Source: Brevundimonas lutea (GTDB lineage: Bacteria > Pseudomonadota > Alphaproteobacteria > Caulobacterales > Caulobacteraceae). From it: a stretch of DNA of 64,000 nt. Positions 2,631 through 55,519 of the stretch are shown piece after piece. Position 1 is the stretch's first letter. The number at the start of each line of letters is the position of its first letter. The notes beneath the pieces are model-generated. The model was not told the origin of the DNA and did no database searches. It saw only the letters and a list, made by a program, of their open reading frames with translations. The stretch spans positions 1 through 64,000 of the forward strand of contig NZ_QUOQ01000007.1 of assembly GCF_003704105.1 (NCBI RefSeq). The letters are read 5' to 3'. A program made the position numbers and the translations under genes.

Positions 2631-5060
<2,430 letters not shown>

Positions 5061-5086
5061 TCCGACGGAATGTGCTAGGAGGGACG

Positions 5087-5278
5087 ATGACCGACACTCC
5101 CAAGACCCCTCCCCCGTCGTCCGCCAGCGCCAATCTCAAGGCGGCGCTGGCCCGAAAGGCCGCGGGCGGATCGGCCCATGCATCGATCGACGGCGGCCGC
5201 GACGGCGAGCGTCAGGCTGCCGCCGCCTCGGCCGCCCGGTCAAAGCCGGCCGCCAAACGCCTGTCCAAGCGGGGCTGA
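5087..5278 (+). CDS. Small basic hypothetical protein
   Basis: The 63-aa protein starts at the ATG after a clear AGGAGGG Shine-Dalgarno (about 5075-5081); an upstream in-frame start at 5072 would lie before that site and is rejected. The product is rich in Ala, Lys, Arg and Ser, has no membrane segment and ends in KRLSKRG. It looks disordered. It follows gyrB by 26 bp and may be co-transcribed. No family is recognised. Confidence 0.6.
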   Translation: MTDTPKTPPPSSASANLKAALARKAAGGSAHASIDGGRDGERQAAAASAARSKPAAKRLSKRG

Positions 5279-5302
5279 CCGCGTCGTTGACGATGGCCGT
5301 CG

Positions 5303-5761
5303 CTAACGCTTGGCCATGAACCCCGCGAGGGTCGGATAGCCCTCTTCCGTATCCGCCTCGCCGCACGCCAGTTGCTTGGCGGCGGGGGCGATGCCCCCGG
5401 CCGGCACATCTTCCCAGGCGGCCTCGGGATCGTCGAACGGCGCATCCTCGGCGCCGTCGGCCAGAATGTCGACCGAGCGAACGATCCGGTATTCGGCCGC
5501 GGCGCAGCGGACTTCATAGGTGTCGAGCATATAGCTCTGGTCGCCGGCGTCCTCGGCCTCCAGAGGCACCGCCGCGACATTGACGCGGGTCACCCCGCCG
5601 GCCTCTGTCTTGCCTCCGATGTTGACGAAATAGGCGCGCGTGGCGCTGGACGCGATCCGTCGCCAGTTGTCGGCGGCCGGCGCGGGCGTCTCCGGTGCGA
5701 TCACGATGGCCTGGCCGGCATCCTGGAACGCGGCCAGCAGTAGCAAGGCGGTAAGCGTCAT
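5303..5761 (-). CDS. Secreted hypothetical protein, adhesin-E-like
   Basis: The start at 5761 is chosen because a GGGGAGGAAGGG Shine-Dalgarno directly precedes it and MTLTALLLLAAFQ makes a signal peptide. This gives 152 aa. The mature part has the pattern NWRRI...YFVN...YEVRC...YRIV, which resembles the surface-adhesin-E-like domain seen in many small periplasmic proteins, with a Cys near residue 85 and another near 130. The function is unknown. It is divergent from the serine hydrolase at 5880. Confidence 0.65.
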   Translation of the reverse strand: MTLTALLLLAAFQDAGQAIVIAPETPAPAADNWRRIASSATRAYFVNIGGKTEAGGVTRVNVAAVPLEAEDAGDQSYMLDTYEVRCAAAEYRIVRSVDILADGAEDAPFDDPEAAWEDVPAGGIAPAAKQLACGEADTEEGYPTLAGFMAKR

Positions 5762-5879
5762 CCCTTCCTCCCCAGCAATGGTGACGACCCCAGTCTTCCC
5801 CCATGACGCGCCGATGACAAGTCGTCGCATCACACCGATCCGCCCTGAACCGGTCACACCCGTCGCGCGTCTGGGATGA

Positions 5880-6932
5880 ATGCGCCCGACCTCCGCCCTT
5901 CTCGCCGCCGCCGTTCTCGTTCTCGCACCCCTCGGCTGTGACACTGCGCCCGCCGCGGGCGCTCAGGCCCGGAGCGTGGCCACCACCGGTCTCGACGCCG
6001 CCCTGGTCGCCACGGCGGTCGAGGAGGCCGCCGCCCTGCCCCGCCTCAACAGCCTGATCGTGGCGCGCGACGGAGAGGTGCTGGTCGAGCGGGTGTTCCG
6101 GGGGCCCGATCTCGACACCCCCGTTAACATCAAGTCGGCCTCCAAGTCGGTGCTGGCCGCCGTCGCCGGCGCCGCGATCGGCCAGGGCCTGCTGCCGGGG
6201 GTCGAGGCGCCGATCTCGACCTGGCTGGCCGATGACTTTCCCGTCGCCCCGGACCCGCGCCTGAACACGCTCACGGTCGAGAACCTCCTGACCATGCAGG
6301 CGGGACTGGGCTCGACTTCGGGCCGCAACTACGGGGCCTGGGTGTCAGGGCGCGACTGGGTCGGCTTCGCCCTGGCCCAGCCGTTCGAGGCCGAGCCGGG
6401 CGGCCGCATGGTCTATTCGACCGGAACTTCGCACATCCTGTCGGCGCTGCTGACCGAGGCGACGGACCGCTCGACCCTGGCCCTGACCCGCGACCTGCTG
6501 GGCGAACCGCTGGGCATCGACATCCCCGAGTGGCCGGCGGATCCCCAGGGCGTCTATTTCGGCGGCAACGACATGCTGATGGCGCCGCGCGACCTGCTGA
6601 CCTTCGGCGAGCTCTATCGCAACGACGGCGTTCATGAGGGCCGACGTGTCCTGCCCGAGGGCTGGGTCGAGACCTCCTGGCGCGGGCGCGGAACCTCGCG
6701 CTGGAGCGGCAACCCTTACGGCTACGGCTGGTGGATCAAACAGGTCGGGGAGCGCGAGGTCTATTTCGCCTGGGGCTATGGCGGCCAAATGGTCTTCGTC
6801 GTGCCCGACCTGGCCCTGACCGTGGTGATGACCTCCGACCCCTCGCCGGTCACACAGCGTGACGACCACGTCGACCGCCTGCACGCCCTGCTCGACCAGC
6901 GGCTGATCCCGGCGGCGGAACGGGGCGGCTGA
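5880..6932 (+). CDS. Beta-lactamase-family serine hydrolase (class C fold), exported
   Basis: The 350-aa protein has an N-terminal signal sequence with a Cys near residue 20 that could be a non-canonical lipobox. The serine nucleophile motif SASK (SxxK) lies in NIKSASKSVL near residues 82-90. The second motif is YSTGTS near 180, and a WWIK...WGYGGQ segment near 285-305 occupies the third-motif region. These features match periplasmic penicillin-binding-protein-like esterases or peptidases rather than true beta-lactamases. The substrate is unknown. It stands alone, with no partner gene. Confidence 0.82.
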   Translation: MRPTSALLAAAVLVLAPLGCDTAPAAGAQARSVATTGLDAALVATAVEEAAALPRLNSLIVARDGEVLVERVFRGPDLDTPVNIKSASKSVLAAVAGAAIGQGLLPGVEAPISTWLADDFPVAPDPRLNTLTVENLLTMQAGLGSTSGRNYGAWVSGRDWVGFALAQPFEAEPGGRMVYSTGTSHILSALLTEATDRSTLALTRDLLGEPLGIDIPEWPADPQGVYFGGNDMLMAPRDLLTFGELYRNDGVHEGRRVLPEGWVETSWRGRGTSRWSGNPYGYGWWIKQVGEREVYFAWGYGGQMVFVVPDLALTVVMTSDPSPVTQRDDHVDRLHALLDQRLIPAAERGG

Positions 6933-8177: not shown

Positions 8178-8969
8178 CTACTGCGCCAGCATGCCGCCGT
8201 CGATTTTCAGCTCGGTCCCGGTGATGAACCGGCTTTCGTCAGAGGCCAGATAGACCACGGCCCAGGCCACGTCGTCGGGCTCGCCGATGCGTTTCAGGGG
8301 GATGCCGCGCGCCAGCCGCTCGTGCGCCTTGGCCTCGTCGCCGCCGGCGAAGGCGACGAACGGGTCGAGGATCGGCGTCTTGATGAACACCGGATGGATC
8401 GAGTTGGCGCGAATGTCCCATCCAGCCTTGGCGCACTCCAGGGCGACGGTCTTGGTGTACATCCACACGGCGGCCTTGGTAGCGTTGTAGGCGCCCATGC
8501 CGGGCGCCGCCGCCAGTCCCGCCACAGACGAGATGTTGATGATCGAAGCCGGCTGGGCCTCGCGCAGGTGCGGCAGGGCGTGCTTGCAGCCCAGCATCAC
8601 CGATTCCTGGTTGATCGCCTGCATGCGGCGCCACGCATCGACCGTGTCCTGCTCGGCCCAGACCAGATCGCCGCCGATCCCGGCGTTGTTGACCAGCACC
8701 GACAGTCCGTCCAGGTCGCGCGCCGCGTCGGCGACGACCCGGACCCAGTCGGCCTCGGACGTCACGTCGTGGGCATAGCCAAAAGCCTGTTCCGGGTGGT
8801 CCGCGTTGATCTCCCGGGCCAGAGCGGCGACCGCCCCGCCGTCGAGGTCCGTCAGGGCCAGGCTCGCGCCCTCCTCGGCCAGCCGCTGCGCCATCGATCG
8901 GCCCAGTCCGCCGGCGGCGCCGGTGATCAGCACCCGCTTGCCGGCGACCCGGCCCGGGCGGGTGATCAC
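8178..8969 (-). CDS. SDR-family NAD(P)-dependent oxidoreductase
   Basis: The 263-aa protein is a classical short-chain dehydrogenase. It has the cofactor motif TGAAGGLG near 16-23, NNAG near 90, the catalytic Ser in INISSVAG near 145 and YNATK near 160. An Asp at the end of strand 2 (LTDLDGG) suggests NAD preference. The GTG start overlaps the phhB stop as GTGA, indicating translational coupling. The substrate is unknown. Confidence 0.9.
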
Positions 8970-48656: not shown

Positions 48657-49055
48657 CTATTCCCGCCCGGGAAGCAGGCGGGGCCTGCGCTCGGCGTCGA
48701 TCGCCACATAGGTGAAGACGCCCTCGGTCACCTTGATCGACTCCTGGCCATAGCGCGGCCGCTTCCAGGCCTCGACACGTACCCCGACGGAAGTCCGGCC
48801 GGTGCGCACCACCCGGGCGTAGATCGAGACCTCGTCGCCCACCGACACCGGCTGGTGGAACACCATCCCGTCCACCGCCACGGTCGAGCACCGCCCCTGG
48901 GCGACCTGAAACGCCGGGGTCGCCCCCGCCAGGTCCATGTGCGCCAAGAGCCAGCCGCCGAAGATGTCGCCCTCGGGGTTGGTGTCGGCCGGCATGGCGA
49001 TCACCCGTCCGACGGGTTCGCCCTCGGGCAGGGTGGGAGATGAGGCGTCGGTCAT
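48657..49055 (-). CDS. Acyl-CoA thioesterase, hotdog fold (YciA-like)
   Basis: The 132-aa protein has MPADTNPEGDIFGGWLLAHMDLAGA near 20-44, the conserved N-P-x-G-D-I-F-G-G-W active-site motif, and later beta strands ending FTYVAIDAERRPRLLP. It hydrolyses acyl-CoA thioesters. It is 8 bp upstream of the HTH gene that ends at 49064 and runs on the same strand. Confidence 0.93.
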   Translation of the reverse strand: MTDASSPTLPEGEPVGRVIAMPADTNPEGDIFGGWLLAHMDLAGATPAFQVAQGRCSTVAVDGMVFHQPVSVGDEVSIYARVVRTGRTSVGVRVEAWKRPRYGQESIKVTEGVFTYVAIDAERRPRLLPGRE

Positions 49056-49063
49056 CCCGCCTC

Positions 49064-50221
49064 TTAGGCCGCGTCGTCGTCGAATGACAACGGCTCGCCG
49101 TCAGGCCCCAGATAGGTCCACAGCGGCCGGCCGTGCTGGTCCCGCGGCGGCGGCGCCACCGGCTCGCCGCGCCGGGCCTTCTCCACCTCCTCGTCGCGCC
49201 ACTGCTCGCCCTGCGGCCCGATCCAGCCGCCGCGCAGCAGCACCGCCCGCTCCATCTGGTACCAGTCGCCGGGCAGGGGCTCGACCCGCACGCCCGTCTC
49301 GATCTCGCGCGCCACGGCCCAGCGCGCCCACGACAGGATCGCCTCGCGGATGTCGCGCGCCACCAGCACCGTGGCGTTCCAGTGCTCCTTGCGCTGCTCT
49401 TCCTTCCACTGCCAATAGCGGCTCTTGGCCGGATGCGAATGTCGGCCGTCGGGGTCGATAGCCAGAAGCGCTCTCAGAACCGCCTGATCCCCGGTGATGC
49501 AGTCGACCAGCTGGTCCAGCGTCACCGTCCCCCGGCCACCCCGCCCGCCGCCGCTCGCGGCCGCCTCCCGCGCCTTGGCCGCCTGGCTCAGGCTCGCGGC
49601 CAGCGCCGCCAGCGTCCTCGCCTCGCCCAGCCGGTTCTGCCGCATCGCCTCGGCCACGCCACTCAACGCCTGCCGCGCCAGCACCGCCGGATCGCCCGCG
49701 TCGTCGAACGGGTCCAGCGGCGGGACCAGCAGGTCCTCCAGCACCACCCCCTGGCCCTTGGCCCGCTCCCGCGCCCGCGCCTGTCGCGGCCGAGACCAGC
49801 CATGCCGACGCGCGCGGCGCCAGATATTGTCCGCCGTCACCCCATAGCGTTCGGCCAGCACCCGCGCCGGCGCTCCCGCCAGATACAGCTCCGCGATCAA
49901 ATCCCAGGTCTCCGGCCCCTTGCGCTTGTACGGCGCGGGCCGCCGCCGCCGCGTCTTGGCCGGAGCGGCAGCCTCGGCCTCAGCCTCCGCCTCCCCGGCC
50001 TCCACCCGCGCAGCATGCTCCCGAGCCCGAGCGTCCCCCACCGCCGCCTTGGTGAACCCGTCCAGACAGGCCCGCCGATAGACCGACCCCGCCGACACCT
50101 TCCACTTCGCCGCCACCTCCTTCGCGCTGGCCCCGCCCGCATACTCCTCCGCGATCAAGGCCCAGGTCTCGGCCGACAGCCGATAATGCGTGGCGCGAGC
50201 AGGCGGAACGGCGCGGGACAT
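49064..50221 (-). CDS. Double HTH hypothetical protein
   Basis: The 385-aa protein has two HTH-like units: RLSAETWALIAEEYAGGASAKEVAAKWKVSAGSVYRRA (about 13-50) and PETWDLIAELYLAGAPARVLAERYGVTADNIWRRARRHGW (about 103-142). Between them is an Ala/Glu linker, and after them a helical segment (RLGEARTLAALAASLSQAAK) and a Gly-rich stretch. The C-terminal 150 residues (RHSHPAKSRYWQWKEEQRKEHWNATVLVARDI...) match nothing recognised. The domain style recalls terminase small subunits and the gene at 30402. It lies next to the island at 50.3 kb. Confidence 0.7.
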   Translation of the reverse strand: MSRAVPPARATHYRLSAETWALIAEEYAGGASAKEVAAKWKVSAGSVYRRACLDGFTKAAVGDARAREHAARVEAGEAEAEAEAAAPAKTRRRRPAPYKRKGPETWDLIAELYLAGAPARVLAERYGVTADNIWRRARRHGWSRPRQARARERAKGQGVVLEDLLVPPLDPFDDAGDPAVLARQALSGVAEAMRQNRLGEARTLAALAASLSQAAKAREAAASGGGRGGRGTVTLDQLVDCITGDQAVLRALLAIDPDGRHSHPAKSRYWQWKEEQRKEHWNATVLVARDIREAILSWARWAVAREIETGVRVEPLPGDWYQMERAVLLRGGWIGPQGEQWRDEEVEKARRGEPVAPPPRDQHGRPLWTYLGPDGEPLSFDDDAA

Positions 50222-50367
50222 GCCGAGGAGGTTGGCGCGCGCATGCGTCAGAAGCGGTCGGGGGTTAACCGTCTCTGACAGTGGCAGCTTAGAACCGATA
50301 CTTGGCGAGAGCGCTTTCGTTGTTTCATGCTGTCGAAGCCGGCTTTAAGGTACGTCGGTCAGCCGAC

Positions 50368-51213
50368 ATGGACTGGCATCTTGAAGCGGCTGAGAAGAGG
50401 CTGAGGGCCATGTTTAGGCGATGGTTTGATCTGACGCTCGACCCAGATCACCATACCCATGACACTGACGGGCTTTATCGCCTTTTTGTGACCGCGGCAC
50501 TGGCGATCATCGTTGTTTTCGCGGCCACCGTCTGGCTGGGGACGTGGGGTGAGCCAGGCCAGTTAGGGGATTTCTTCGGGGGGTTTCTCAACCCGATACT
50601 GACCTTCATCACGTTTATGGGTGTGCTTGCAACGATCCTGCTTCAACATCGCGAACTTAAAGAGACACGAGGTGAGCTCGCCAAATCAGCCGAGGCGCTC
50701 GCTACCCAGAACGATATATCTGGACGCCAGTTATTTGAGTCGTCATTTTTCCAGATGCTTTCACTTCACAACAGCATCGTGACGAGCATAGATCTTAATT
50801 TGGGAGATAGTAAGCAAAGACACGGACGAGACTGCTTCAACAACTTTCTTTCGCACCTCCAACGCGCGTATTTTTCAAAAAAGCGCGAAATGTCCGGAAG
50901 TGATGAGATAGACATTATAACTGAGGCATATAACGAATATTGGTCGCGAAAAAATACCGAGCTAGGACACTATTATAGACATCTATTCAATATCACACGC
51001 TACATCATAGCTCACCGCTACTTTCAGCCATATCACGGGAAGATGCTCAGATCGCAGCTATCGGATCAAGAACTCGTGCTGTTATACTACAATTCACTGA
51101 CCACGCGAGGAGCGGCATTCAAAGATCTGGCGAAGAAAATCGATCTGTTCGACAATTTACCTAAAGAAATGCTTTTGGACCCTAGCCACATTAAATGGCT
51201 CTCAGACTTCTAG
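50368..51213 (+). CDS. Putative phage abortive-infection membrane protein (AbiC-like)
   Basis: The ATG at 50368 (MDWHLEAAEKRLRAMFRRW) gives 281 aa; a TTG at 50302 is a longer alternative. Two TM helices lie near 36-60 and 72-92. The core reads GDFFGGFLNPILTFITFMGVLATILLQHRELKETR, a short coiled coil, QLFESSFFQMLSLHNSI, then HYYRHLFNITRYIIA and LRSQLSDQELVLLYYNSLT. This order matches the putative AbiC family (Pfam putAbiC) as known to me. The gene is AT-rich compared with its neighbours. It is convergent with the ATPase at 51210, with 4 bases of overlap. Confidence 0.8.
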   Translation: MDWHLEAAEKRLRAMFRRWFDLTLDPDHHTHDTDGLYRLFVTAALAIIVVFAATVWLGTWGEPGQLGDFFGGFLNPILTFITFMGVLATILLQHRELKETRGELAKSAEALATQNDISGRQLFESSFFQMLSLHNSIVTSIDLNLGDSKQRHGRDCFNNFLSHLQRAYFSKKREMSGSDEIDIITEAYNEYWSRKNTELGHYYRHLFNITRYIIAHRYFQPYHGKMLRSQLSDQELVLLYYNSLTTRGAAFKDLAKKIDLFDNLPKEMLLDPSHIKWLSDF

Positions 51214-52370
51214 ACAACAATTACTCGCTCGTGATCATTTTTTGCCAGCCGCGATCGTATCGCCATACGAAATTTTGGCGACACAAGCCGATAGGCGTTA
51301 TTTTTAGGCGTTCTGCGAATCATAGGGCTGGATTCTTTGCTGAAGCCAGCCAGAATTTGTATTACATTTAGTCCTACATTCGCAGTGCTGACCGGAAATT
51401 CGTCCCGAACAATCCGTTCAATGTCGGTCGATGTGAAATCCTCAGTTTCGCACTGACCAAGAGCAAAGATGACCTGATTCTTGCGTCCTGCGCGCGTCTC
51501 TCGAGCGTTCATTATCCCGTCAATGATGGCCCAATCCGCCGAGAGATACTCATCCATCCACTGCCTCTCCGCGATTGATACTACCTCGTTAGAAATTTCT
51601 CCATCGTTTTTAATGGCTTCATAGGCAATATTAAGACAAAACTCATGAATATGCTGAGCGATTCTGTCAGTCTTCCAGGATATATCATGGAGCAACTGCG
51701 TTTTATCGACAGTTATATTGAGTCCAATCTCTCTTTCTAATCCTCTCTCAATAAGATCAACGGCCTCCGCCTGACTCATTCTTGCTACCTCAGGAATCTC
51801 CGTCAATCGATTTGAGATCGTAGACCCGCTTGCAAGCTTCGAAATCATGGCGCGAATGTCATTGGGCGTGCCGACGATAACGATTTTTACATTAGCGGCC
51901 GCGACCGATTCATCGTCAGCGGATATTATCGCAGCCGCGATTTCACGAAGTATTTTATCATTGTCCACCACCTGTTCAAAGTTATCTAAAACAAGGACGG
52001 CTTGGCGAGACCCCGCCTGATGGCGAATATATTGCACAAAACGGAGCAACGAACTGACAGAACCAAAGTCAGGTTCGATACCAGACTCGGCCATCTTGCT
52101 TTCGATTGCAGCAGAAAGGCTCCCCATCGAGTCAGCGGTCGAGAGGTTCATCACCTGTGTGAAGACGTCGAGTTCACGGAAAATCTTTTTGTAAAGCCAA
52201 GTCTTACCGTTTCCACTTTCGCCATGGATAACAATAAATTTTGTGGAGCTCAAAGCACGACGAAGCTTTTCTTCTAACTCTTCACGCCGAACATACATCC
52301 GATCATTGATGTCAGATGCTCTGGGCGTGAACACCCTTGCTGGCGGGTTCGTAGGTGTAAATTTCGGCAT
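51210..52370 (-). CDS. Orphan P-loop ATPase, putative defence protein
   Basis: The ATG at 52370 is preceded by AGGGAG; the GTG two codons upstream is less likely. The 386-aa product has an N-terminal RVFTPRASDINDRMYVRREELEEKL segment, Walker A IHGESGNGKTWLY (near 46-58), Walker B AVLVLDNFEQ (near 123-132), an IVIVGTPNDIRAMI sensor-like strand, and a C-terminal part that could be a winged helix (YRLVSPKFRMAIRSRL). It fits AAA_16/STAND-like ATPases. No nuclease or sensor domain is recognised. It is AT-rich like the AbiC-like gene it faces. Confidence 0.7.
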   Translation of the reverse strand: MPKFTPTNPPARVFTPRASDINDRMYVRREELEEKLRRALSSTKFIVIHGESGNGKTWLYKKIFRELDVFTQVMNLSTADSMGSLSAAIESKMAESGIEPDFGSVSSLLRFVQYIRHQAGSRQAVLVLDNFEQVVDNDKILREIAAAIISADDESVAAANVKIVIVGTPNDIRAMISKLASGSTISNRLTEIPEVARMSQAEAVDLIERGLEREIGLNITVDKTQLLHDISWKTDRIAQHIHEFCLNIAYEAIKNDGEISNEVVSIAERQWMDEYLSADWAIIDGIMNARETRAGRKNQVIFALGQCETEDFTSTDIERIVRDEFPVSTANVGLNVIQILAGFSKESSPMIRRTPKNNAYRLVSPKFRMAIRSRLAKNDHERVIVV

Positions 52371-52401
52371 GCCCACTCCCTAAGGTAGATCGGCCAAACC
52401 C

Positions 52402-54210
52402 TCAATCCCCATCCATCTTCAGCGCCGCGATGAAGGCTTCCTGCGGGATCTCGACCTTGCCGAACTGGCGCATCCGCTTCTTGCCTTCCTTCTGTTTCTC
52501 CAGAAGCTTCTTCTTTCGCGTCGCGTCGCCGCCGTAGCATTTGGCGGTGACGTCCTTCCTCAGCGCGCGGACCGTCTCGCGGGCGATGATCTTGCCGCCG
52601 ATGGCGGCCTGGATCGGGATCTGGAACAGGTGCGAGGGGATCAGCTCCTTCATCTTCTCGACCATGCCCCGGCCGCGCGTCTCGGCGCGTGAGCGGTGGA
52701 CCAGCATCGACAGGGCGTCCACCGGCTCGGCGTTGACCAGGATGTTCATCTTGACCAGGTCGCCGACGCGGTAGTCGGCCAGCTCGTAGTCGAAGCTGGC
52801 GTATCCCTTTGAGATGGATTTCAGCCGGTCGTAGAAGTCGAACACCACCTCGTTCAGCGGCAGCTCATAGACCACCATGGCGCGGCTGCCGACATAGGAC
52901 AGCTCCTTCTGCTCGCCGCGGCGGTCCTGGCACAGCTTGATCACCCCGCCCAGATACTCGTCCGGGGTCATGATGGTGGCCTTGATCCAGGGCTCGGAGA
53001 TTTCCAGGATCTGCATCACGTCGGGCAGGTCGGCCGGGTTGTGCAGGTCGACGTCCGAGCCGTCGCGCAGCTTCAGCTTATAGACCACCGACGGCGCGGT
53101 CGCGATCAGGTCCAGATTGAATTCGCGGCTGAGACGCTCCTGGATGATCTCCAGGTGCAGCAGCCCCAGGAATCCGCAGCGGAAGCCGAAGCCGAGGGCG
53201 GCCGAGCTCTCCATCTCATAGGTGAAGGAGGCGTCGTTCAGGCGCAGGCGGCCGATGGCGGCGCGCAGGTCCTCGAAATCGGCGGCGTCGACCGGGAACA
53301 GGCCGCAGAACACCACCGACTGCACCTCCTTGAACCCCTTCAGCGGGGCGTCGGTGGGCTTCTTCTCGTCGGTGATGGTGTCGCCGACGGCGGCGTGGGC
53401 GACCTCCTTGATCTGGGCGGTGATGAAGCCGATCTCGCCGGGCCCCAGGCTCTCGACCGGGGTGTTCTTGGGCAGAAAGACCCCGACCCGGTCGACCAGG
53501 TGGGTCGAGCCGTTCTGCATCATCTTGACCCGCATCCCGGCCTTCAGCCGGCCATCGAAGACGCGGACCAGCAGCACCACGCCCAGGTACGGGTCGTACC
53601 AGGCGTCGACCAGCATGGCCTTCAGCGGCTTGGTCTCGTCGCCCTGGGGCGCGGGCAGGCGGGTGACGACGGCCTCCAGCACGTCGGCGATGCCGATGCC
53701 CGACTTGGCCGAACACAGCACGGCGTCGGAGGCGTCGATGCCGATGACGTCCTCGATCTGGGCGCGGACCCGCTCGGGCTCGGCGGCCGGCAGATCGATC
53801 TTGTTCAGGACGGGGACGATCTCGTGATTGTTGTCGATCGCCTGATAGACATTGGCCAGGGTCTGGGCCTCGACCCCTTGCGACGCATCCACCACCAGGA
53901 TCGAGCCCTCGCAGGCGGCCAGGCTGCGGCTGACCTCATAGGCGAAGTCCACATGGCCCGGCGTGTCCATCAGGTTCAGGACATAGGTTTCCCCATCCTG
54001 GGCGGTGTAGTTCAGACGCACGGTCTGCGCCTTGATGGTGATCCCCCGCTCCTGCTCGATCTCCATATTGTCGAGCACCTGGGAGCTCATCTCGCGCGCC
54101 GTCAGCCCCCCGGTTTCCTGGATCAGCCGATCGGAAAGCGTTGATTTCCCATGATCAATATGGGCGACGATCGAAAAGTTGCGGATGCGCTGGAGGGGGG
54201 TGTTCGACAT
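52402..54210 (-). CDS. lepA: Elongation factor 4 (LepA)
   Basis: The 602-aa GTPase has [18 protein letters not shown] (G1, about 12-29), the G2/G3 region [15 protein letters not shown] and G4 NKIDLP, EF-Tu-like domains and the LepA-specific C-terminal domain ending [16 protein letters not shown]. LepA acts in back-translocation and ribosome assembly. It starts next to the AT-rich island. Confidence 0.97.
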
Positions 54211-54379
54211 GGCGCCCGGCGCCTACCACGCCCGGCCCCCGCGCGCGAGGCCCGGACCCCATTGGCGCCGCCGAGATTAAACCTTGGTCATTCGGCGCTC
54301 CGCCGGTTTTCGGACACGCGGCCGTGATCTAAGGGGGTTCGATCGGCCTCCCCGCCGCCGTTATCAGGGACGTCTCCGC

Positions 54380-55519
54380 GTGCTGACCCGCCCCTCTCGC
54401 CTGCCGCTCCGCCTCGCCATCCTCGCCGCCGTGCTCGGCCTCGCCGCCTGTCATGGCGGGCAGGAAGCGGGTGCGGAAAAGGAGGGCGCCGCCTCCAGCC
54501 AAACCGTCACCGTGAGCACCGCCCGAACCGCGGCGCTGGACCGCACCGTCACGGCGTCCGGCGCGATCTCGGCCTGGGAAGAGGTGCCGGTCGGCGCCGA
54601 GGCCGGAGGCCTGACCGCCGTCGCCGTGCTGGCCGACGAGGGCCAGTATGTGCGCCAGGGCCAACCCCTGGTGCGGATGAACGACACCCTGTTGCGAGCG
54701 CAACTGACCCAGCAGCAGGCGTCGGTCGAGGCCGCCGAAGCCAACGCCGACCGCGAGGCGGGCGACCTGTCGCGGGCTCGTGAACTGAACGGACGGGGCT
54801 TCCTGTCCCAGGCGTCGCTGGATCTCGCCATCTCCGAGGAGCGCTCGGCCCAGGCCCAGCTCAGCCAGAGCCGGGCCGCCTTGGCCGAGACCCGCGCCCG
54901 TCTGGACCAGGCGGTAATCCGTGCGCCCGTGTCCGGCCTGATCATCAGCCGCAGCGTCACCCGAGGCCAGATCGTCGACGCCGGGGTCGAACTGTTCCGC
55001 CTGGTGCGCGACGGCCGGCTGGAGCTGGACGCCCAAGTTCCCGAGACCGAGCTGAATCTTGTCCGCGCCGGACAATCGGCGACGGTCAGCTCCGACCAGG
55101 TCGGCCAGGCGGCGGGCCGGGTGCGCATCGTGACGCCCGAGGTCGACGCCGAGACGCGCCTGGGGGTGGCGCGCATCGCCCTCGCGGCACCCGGATCCTT
55201 CCGTCCCGGCATGTTCGGCCGCGCCGAGATCGCCGTGGGGGCCCAGCCTGCCGTGGTGGTGCCGACAGCCTCGGTGCTGTTCCGCGAGAACCGCGCCGGC
55301 GTCTATGTGCTGGGCGCCGAGAACCGCGTCCGCTTCCAACCCGTGCGGGTGTTGGCCAGGTCCGAAGCCGAGACCTCGGTCGACGGCGTGGCCGAGGGCG
55401 CGCGCGTCGTGGTCGAGGGCGCCGGCTTCCTCGGCGAGGGCGATGTGGTGCGCGTGGTCCAGCCGACCGCCGCACCGGCTCGCCCCGCTCCCGCCCCGGC
55501 CGCCAAGACGGCCGGCTGA
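54380..55519 (+). CDS. RND efflux membrane-fusion (adaptor) lipoprotein
   Basis: The GTG at 54380 has AGGGA ten bases before it and gives 379 aa; upstream frame is Arg-rich and not coding. The lipobox is LAAC (near 24). The adaptor plan is complete: a barrel-sandwich hybrid (GAISAWEEVPVGAEAGG), a coiled-coil hairpin (QLTQQQASVEAAEANADREAGDLSRARELNGRG), a second lipoyl half (VIRAPVSGLI), a beta-barrel and a membrane-proximal domain. It works with the permease at 55529, 9 bp away. Confidence 0.93.
   Translation: MLTRPSRLPLRLAILAAVLGLAACHGGQEAGAEKEGAASSQTVTVSTARTAALDRTVTASGAISAWEEVPVGAEAGGLTAVAVLADEGQYVRQGQPLVRMNDTLLRAQLTQQQASVEAAEANADREAGDLSRARELNGRGFLSQASLDLAISEERSAQAQLSQSRAALAETRARLDQAVIRAPVSGLIISRSVTRGQIVDAGVELFRLVRDGRLELDAQVPETELNLVRAGQSATVSSDQVGQAAGRVRIVTPEVDAETRLGVARIALAAPGSFRPGMFGRAEIAVGAQPAVVVPTASVLFRENRAGVYVLGAENRVRFQPVRVLARSEAETSVDGVAEGARVVVEGAGFLGEGDVVRVVQPTAAPARPAPAPAAKTAG

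Follow-up and report, generated by a model that had tools for sequence, protein, structure and literature searches.

The combination of a membrane effector with an ATPase is a known layout in anti-phage defence. Single membrane-anchored proteins are also described. PdpSau, encoded by a Staphylococcus aureus prophage, is membrane-anchored and, according to PMC10127798, lets phage DNA enter, halts replication and disturbs the membrane; PdpSau's own authors compare it there with AbiP. The membrane anchor of AbiP, from Lactococcus, serves here as an analogy, the AbiP paper being represented by its title in the references of PMC3231927. A literature search found no paper naming 'putAbiC', 'putative phage abortive infection' or 'PF16872', and PDC-S59, a PADLOC defence candidate model, is not mentioned among the papers listed for it. 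For lepA-linked islands, nothing relevant was present among the matches listed and, as far as these search listings go, no report of a hotspot at the lepA tail was found.

The locus described here lies in a window of 64,000 nucleotides from Brevundimonas lutea, the term denoting the whole stretch of DNA that was analysed. In it, two adjacent AT-rich genes (50368-51213, plus strand; 51210-52370, minus strand) occupy the interval between an HTH gene and lepA. The overall best explanation, and on balance a likely one, is that they would be two independent passengers, each acquired horizontally, in a variable cargo slot that starts at the lepA stop codon. The features of the island and its borders are as follows.

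49064..50221, minus strand: HTH protein, the island's other border
50368..51213, plus strand: putAbiC-family membrane protein, 281 aa (PF16872, phrog_8999, PADLOC; GC 48.1%; model pLDDT 91.0)
50470..50652, plus strand: pair of predicted membrane helices, near aa 35-58 and 69-95, separated by a conserved GxxGDxxxG loop (hydropathy, model)
50950..51168, plus strand: Pfam putAbiC domain, aa 195-267, containing the motifs HYYR and QLS..EL
51210..51213, no strand assigned: CTAG common to both stop codons (4-base convergent overlap)
51210..52370, minus strand: Cdc6/Orc1-like AAA+ ATPase, 386 aa, directly downstream of lepA on the same strand
51249..51485, minus strand: C-terminal winged-helix-like region (aa 296-374; our reading of the model), helix-strand-helix-helix-strand-strand
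52200..52223, minus strand: Walker A, GESGNGKT (aa 50-57)
52371..52401, minus strand: 31-bp gap from the lepA stop to the ATPase start, with an SD-like AGGGAG by eye
52402..54210, minus strand: lepA (EF4), a core gene whose 3' end is the border of the variable slot

The island and its two proteins

The sharp AT-rich composition on which a sequence-only reading of this DNA had remarked is borne out (47-48% GC against 69%), the plus-strand gene having 48.1% and the minus-strand gene 46.9%, compared with 68.9% in the window and 64.6% in lepA. The genes are convergent, as that reading also had it, and their stop codons overlap by four bases in CTAG. Since it lies on the same strand as lepA, downstream of it and 31 bp from its stop codon, the ATPase gene is better viewed as following lepA than as one member of a convergent pair. 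No terminator was reported by the scan between the two (52371-52401), and the ATPase is probably expressed via read-through from lepA. The promoter and terminator scan was uninformative (four promoter-like sites against 2.3 expected, three terminator-like against 2.9); Rfam gave no match at gathering thresholds over 49000-54500 and the window contains no tRNA genes. Two two-copy families of short repeats in the island, 79% and 88% alike, were taken as chance.

The plus-strand product, which an in-frame TTG at 50302 could lengthen by 22 aa, scores above the Pfam cut-off for PF16872 (putAbiC; E 4.9e-13, 49.8 bits against a cut-off of 22) and matches phrog_8999 at 2e-30. Its hydrophobic stretches span residues 33-63 and 69-95, and the loop between the predicted helices is formed by G64, G67, D68 and G72, the last three being present in 40 of 40 sequences with a letter there and G64 in 90%. 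Across the family alignment of 41 sequences, E124, F127, F128 and E235 are invariant, and H201 and Y202 are kept in 85% and 95%; the FFQML, HYYRHLF and ELVLLYYNSLT motifs from which an AbiC-like family had been proposed hold conserved positions in these 41 members. The features of membership, two N-terminal membrane helices together with conserved E..FF, HYYR and QLS motifs, are thereby present. The model (mean pLDDT 91.0, pTM 0.67, built on the 41-sequence alignment) consists of a first helix, a membrane helix, a second membrane helix contained within one 77-residue helix and a helical C-terminal domain, with model helices at H33-57 and H63-139. An HEPN-type R-x4-H motif seen by eye (RYIIAH) was dropped, as the three other sequences compared do not keep RYIIAH.

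Solved structures yielded no convincing match to this model, the best Foldseek hit having an E of 0.76 and the best VIA comparison a Z of 7.7, which falls within that tool's range for unrelated helical models. PdpSau was not detected as a sequence relative (HMM score -9.3 bits, hhalign probability 0.3%) and, for this reason, the proposed mechanism can be described as working like that of PdpSau and not as being the same. The protein is probably anti-phage, and may act alone, anchored in the membrane, in abortive infection or superinfection exclusion. From the two N-terminal membrane helices, the chain would lead through the long helix into the conserved helical domain, and this domain would respond when phage replicates; as in AbiP and PdpSau, which are likewise membrane-anchored and serve as analogues, the protein would then stop that replication or disturb the membrane.

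For the minus-strand product, the earlier assignment to the STAND-like ATPases held in part. The protein is an AAA+ ATPase (Pfam AAA_22, 1.1e-12) and a Pfam scan at E <= 1 revealed no effector or repeat domain, whereas nSTAND1 was just missed (26.7 bits against a cut-off of 27.1), and its model is Cdc6/Orc1-like. The Walker A residues G50, S52, G53, G55 and K56 are invariant across six aligned homologues. The structural model (pLDDT 82.7, built from four sequences only) resembles Cdc6 1fnn, both by Foldseek (E 3.4e-10, TM 0.45) and by VIA (Z 13.8, rmsd 6.2 over 314 residues, model residues 4-378), and the archaeal ATPase 2qen (VIA Z 15.5, rmsd 9.9, 317 residues); the AAA+ core and the C-terminal winged-helix-like region both align to Cdc6. 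In the PADLOC search, AbiP (E 1.8e-5, 22.9 bits, residues 111-257 only) and AbiC (0.0027) matched the membrane protein weakly, and PDC-S59 matched only the N-terminal part of the ATPase, covering model positions 13-61 of 428, which is short of most of the model. All six family members scanned, the window's included, carry this N-terminal match.

Whether the ATPase is anti-phage is an evenly balanced question. As a Cdc6/Orc1-like AAA+ protein that stands alone, its Walker A intact and its C-terminus winged-helix-like, it would be likely to bind DNA in an ATP-dependent manner and to hinder the replication or establishment of invading DNA.

Distribution of the two families

Relatives of the putAbiC gene were found at 75 viral-contig loci, some near-identical to one another, and in 12 plasmid and six phage records. 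Their neighbours on viral contigs include integrases, repressors and tail proteins. In a scan of 124 of 138 neighbour proteins (14, mostly from near-copies of other loci, were omitted by choice), tail fibre J, one repressor family and two families of integrases were each matched by eight proteins, among the 25 of 160 families listed and with one protein able to match several. Judged from these contexts, putAbiC is a family that travels in prophages as an accessory gene, because its neighbours match tail, repressor and integrase families. One relative, in the Vibrio phage vB_VipaK of the Inoviridae (L032, 3977-4825), lies downstream of an annotated zona occludens toxin gene, placing a membrane defence-type gene in a filamentous phage (inovirus). 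Within the genus, two of 51 genomes carry a putAbiC gene, the window's among them. The sole other copy (L027, 1144-2526, minus strand, genome G057) is not at lepA and lies near integrase-like and GIY-YIG-like ORFs, both recognised by eye.

Homologues of the ATPase are rare. A family-level search of 390 genomes returned only the window copy as a strong match; the class search found it in one of 385 genomes (the window's), the phylum search in two of 398 (the window's and G971) and a search of the order of G971 in three of 361, these genome sets partly overlapping and the cut-offs differing between searches. Elsewhere, two plasmid records and three viral contigs carry homologues and no phage record does. 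Five genomes of the family-level search with weak ATPase-domain matches (E 3.6e-5 to 9.9e-4) and 19 genome-contig loci with weak matches (23-31% identity) were not counted as family members. One of the viral contigs bears a second, weaker homologue about 3.3 kb from the first (L038, 9682-11037, minus strand, 4.5e-7).

The neighbours of the ATPase vary from locus to locus. On a 1.19-Mb Tritonibacter plasmid (L029), the homologue (5001-6248) lies about 300 bp from a gene (3408-4688) that matches the PADLOC dGTPase model at 9.9e-140, in a stretch that looks prophage-like by eye; on a MOBP plasmid, a relative adjoins a ParA-family gene and a gene that is ParB-like by eye.

That the island genes are native members of the lepA operon that have turned AT-rich, without a defence function, is barely credible. 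The ATPase does lie on lepA's strand and 31 bp from it, but the closest other match in the 390-genome search is the E of 3.6e-5 given above, putAbiC is confined to two genomes of 51 and the GC content of the genes is about 20 points under that of the window.

The sequence-only reading had instead joined the two genes into one defence system, in which the ATPase would sense infection and activate the membrane protein, with convergent transcription. The genes are indeed adjacent and alike in composition, their stop codons overlap and the layout of a membrane effector with an ATPase has precedents in defence. The co-occurrence of the families was examined by running profiles of both over the ORFs of 252 loci (115 at an earlier stage). 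The window alone held both: within the flanks examined, of which some are short (L037 has less than 500 bp on one side), none of eight other ATPase loci (two plasmids, three viral contigs and genomes G971, G1430 and G1161) had a putAbiC gene, and none of 79 other putAbiC loci (75 viral, together with L027, L030, L031 and L032, the remaining plasmid and phage matches lying outside the count) had the ATPase. Each family is found alone: putAbiC occurs in prophages and on plasmids, the ATPase on plasmids, on viral contigs and downstream of lepA. The convergent orientation also speaks against a joint unit. The pair as a single system was rejected on the lack of co-occurrence in the loci examined and is an improbable reading; the absence of the pair elsewhere, as far as examined, is an outcome that had been set beforehand as counting against it. 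It is highly likely that the putAbiC protein and the ATPase work independently.

The variable slot behind lepA

A search of 61 genomes of the genus identified LepA in 56. Its downstream side was taken for 40 of the 55 other genomes, mostly short or end-lying contigs being left out by judgement, and two of the 40 are cut by contig ends. Neither island gene occurs in the slot in any of these 40, and 20 of them have an ORF of less than 60% GC that starts within 2.5 kb of the lepA stop, slot ORFs being called mechanically. The flanks were compared by tblastx over 1.2 kb at the 30 loci with the best LepA score, the window included. Upstream of lepA, each flank has a median of 22 similar partners and four of 30 have none; downstream, the median is 0 and 24 of 30 have none. 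At 29 loci of the single control gene used, def, the flank medians are 25 and 27. This supports the accessory hotspot that had been suspected beside lepA, and the comparison of the neighbourhood that had been proposed to reveal a variable insertion revealed hypervariability, with the island genes themselves confined to the window among the slots compared.

Proteins were scanned individually at 18 of the 40 loci, most of them selected because their GC was low, and in 12 of these a protein of restriction or defence type lies no more than about 3.6 kb from lepA. These comprise GmrSD_N (L148), HEPN_Swt1 (L149), NgoMIV (L150), MrcB_N/NOV_C (L152, 2.5 kb off and not adjoining lepA), HSDR_N (L157), Vsr (L158), HNH_2 (L159 and L163), EcoRII (L165), a methyltransferase (L166), NaeI (L180) and Beta protein (Beta_protein, L181). 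Gene clusters with HNH genes are common to L164 and L163, and to L172 and L159. A broader collection, taken without selection for GC, comprised 118 proteins of the slot at the 40 loci (ORFs of at least 100 aa starting within 2.6 kb). Its commonest Pfam families are DNA_methylase (6), Vsr (5), NOV_C (4) and HNH_2 (4), with no integrase among the 25 of 73 families listed. It also contains HgmA, glucokinase and M16 peptidase, three each; as metabolic families are present, the slot is not purely one for defence. Against PADLOC at 1e-10, the 118 proteins matched 98 families, many being overlapping methyltransferase models on the same proteins, compared with five families of one member each for 110 control proteins (both def flanks and the lepA upstream flank, some cut by locus ends). 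The region behind lepA is therefore hypervariable in the genus and, in relatives, often holds genes of restriction-modification or defence type; that the slot often takes defence genes is very probable.

Across the class, using the 24 of 28 loci with enough flank, the GC content falls at least 7 points below that of lepA downstream in three and upstream in none. Such a clear drop behind lepA being uncommon, the slot is not equally active everywhere and the hotspot may belong mainly to this genus.

The borders of the cargo were examined in nine pairs of relatives. In seven, similarity stops within four bases of the lepA stop; it continues 58 bases past it in L157 versus L175 and 41 in L178 versus L168. 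In three of the 40 genus loci, the 3' end of lepA is repeated on the far side of the insert: L151 has a 29-bp copy, L164 two copies of 210 and 64 bp, and L166 one of 165 bp. Because lepA 3' ends are duplicated and similarity ends at the lepA stop, the junctions suggest that cargo enters at the lepA tail, either site-specifically or with a lepA tail of its own that serves for homologous recombination. The two successive fragments in L164, at 760-969 and 1725-1788 bp past the lepA stop, look as if two insertions had occurred in succession at one site. No duplicated tail was found in the window or in G971, G1430 and G1123.

On the far side of the island, the HTH protein (49064-50221) went unmatched at E <= 1e-40 across 130 further genomes of the genus. 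Its N-terminal HTH part finds a match in the compared stretch downstream of lepA in 11 of 40. The thioesterase that neighbours the window's island is present in 58 of 61 genus genomes and is absent from the relatives' lepA-downstream stretches that were compared. As the HTH gene lacks a strong genus match and the thioesterase gene is located elsewhere in relatives, no empty site could be demonstrated for the window.

The slot also recurs in the distribution of the ATPase. Of its four copies in genome assemblies, three stand immediately behind lepA and share its strand, namely those of the window, G971 (L115) and G1430 (L251); in G1161 (L252) it is located away from lepA. G971 and G1430 belong to one family in another order of the same class. 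The gap between lepA and the ATPase is 292 bp in G971 and 3 bp in G1430, where the start is GTG by a mechanical call. The reading frame of the G971 ATPase is interrupted close to a run of G (L115, around 8876-8904), which may denote a pseudogene or a sequencing error. G1123, a congener of G971, has a different ORF, of 45% GC, in its lepA slot. The LepA proteins of G971 and G1430 are 90% identical and their ATPases 34% (compared over the initial, uninterrupted part of the G971 gene), and in the ATPase tree G971 pairs with the copy from Tritonibacter and G1430 with that of G1161, both groupings at 100/100; for these reasons, the two arrivals were most likely separate. The count of three includes the window, the other two having come from searches not aimed at lepA, and, on a rough estimate with 50 equal slots, two of three further genome copies would lie behind lepA about once in 850 cases.

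These placements also bear on whether the ATPase is a replicon-derived, Orc1/Cdc6-like initiator or regulator left behind by a plasmid or prophage and not a defence protein. The Cdc6/Orc1-like model fits such an origin, as do the MOBP plasmid relative beside ParA-family and ParB-like genes, the latter by eye, and the other relatives in viral contigs. However, the protein is far from the Orc1/Cdc6 initiator model TIGR02928 (19.5 bits against a cut-off of 181.3), the relatives have no constant neighbour, the gene lies directly behind lepA in three genomes with no recognised replication genes beside it, and the slot that it occupies often receives defence genes. An initiator remnant is possible, if unlikely, and the account of a separately acquired passenger is preferred. 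A further proposal goes beyond that account and is doubtful enough to be offered as speculation. In it, small defence cassettes would land specifically at the lepA 3' end, in two or more bacterial families from different orders. The Cdc6-like ATPase would be a new immune family consisting of one gene, which returns to this site again and again. Its expression, and in one genome perhaps also its translation, would be from the lepA transcript, the reason possibly being that a link to this translation factor contributes to the mechanism of the ATPase.

Comparison with described systems

What deserves following is the lepA-tail slot together with the lone Cdc6-like ATPase that recurs in it. A slot that can be located through one highly conserved gene offers a cheap harvest of new defence genes across a genus, and the apparently repeated, independent arrival behind lepA makes an effector-less ATPase a directly testable defence candidate.

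In common with other PF16872 proteins, the window's putAbiC protein has a C-terminal domain that clears the Pfam cut-off and is preceded by two membrane helices, and it has relatives in prophages and plasmids; it differs in that its gene sits in a chromosomal slot behind lepA. With AbiP and PdpSau it shares a membrane anchor and a soluble domain in one gene, the weak PADLOC match to AbiP falling in the soluble part. PdpSau has one membrane helix and differs also in having no detectable sequence relation, and the comparison with AbiP was made through the PADLOC model. The ATPase shares a near-full-length fold, AAA+ plus a winged-helix-like end, with the Cdc6/Orc1 initiators (PDB 1fnn, 2qby) and with archaeal ATPase 2qen, but at about 15% identity and a TM-score of about 0.45, and it is an accessory bacterial gene product that neither family model nor context marks as an initiator. 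The PDC-S59 model has in common with the six scanned members the N-terminal segment around Walker A; only 49-86 residues match, and the remainder of the ATPase constitutes a separate family. Finally, the slot resembles the defence hotspots of P2 phages and P4 satellites, as presented in PMC9122126, in joining a fixed flank to small defence cassettes that are swapped, whereas here that flank is the 3' end of lepA, with duplicated tails in three of 40 genomes.
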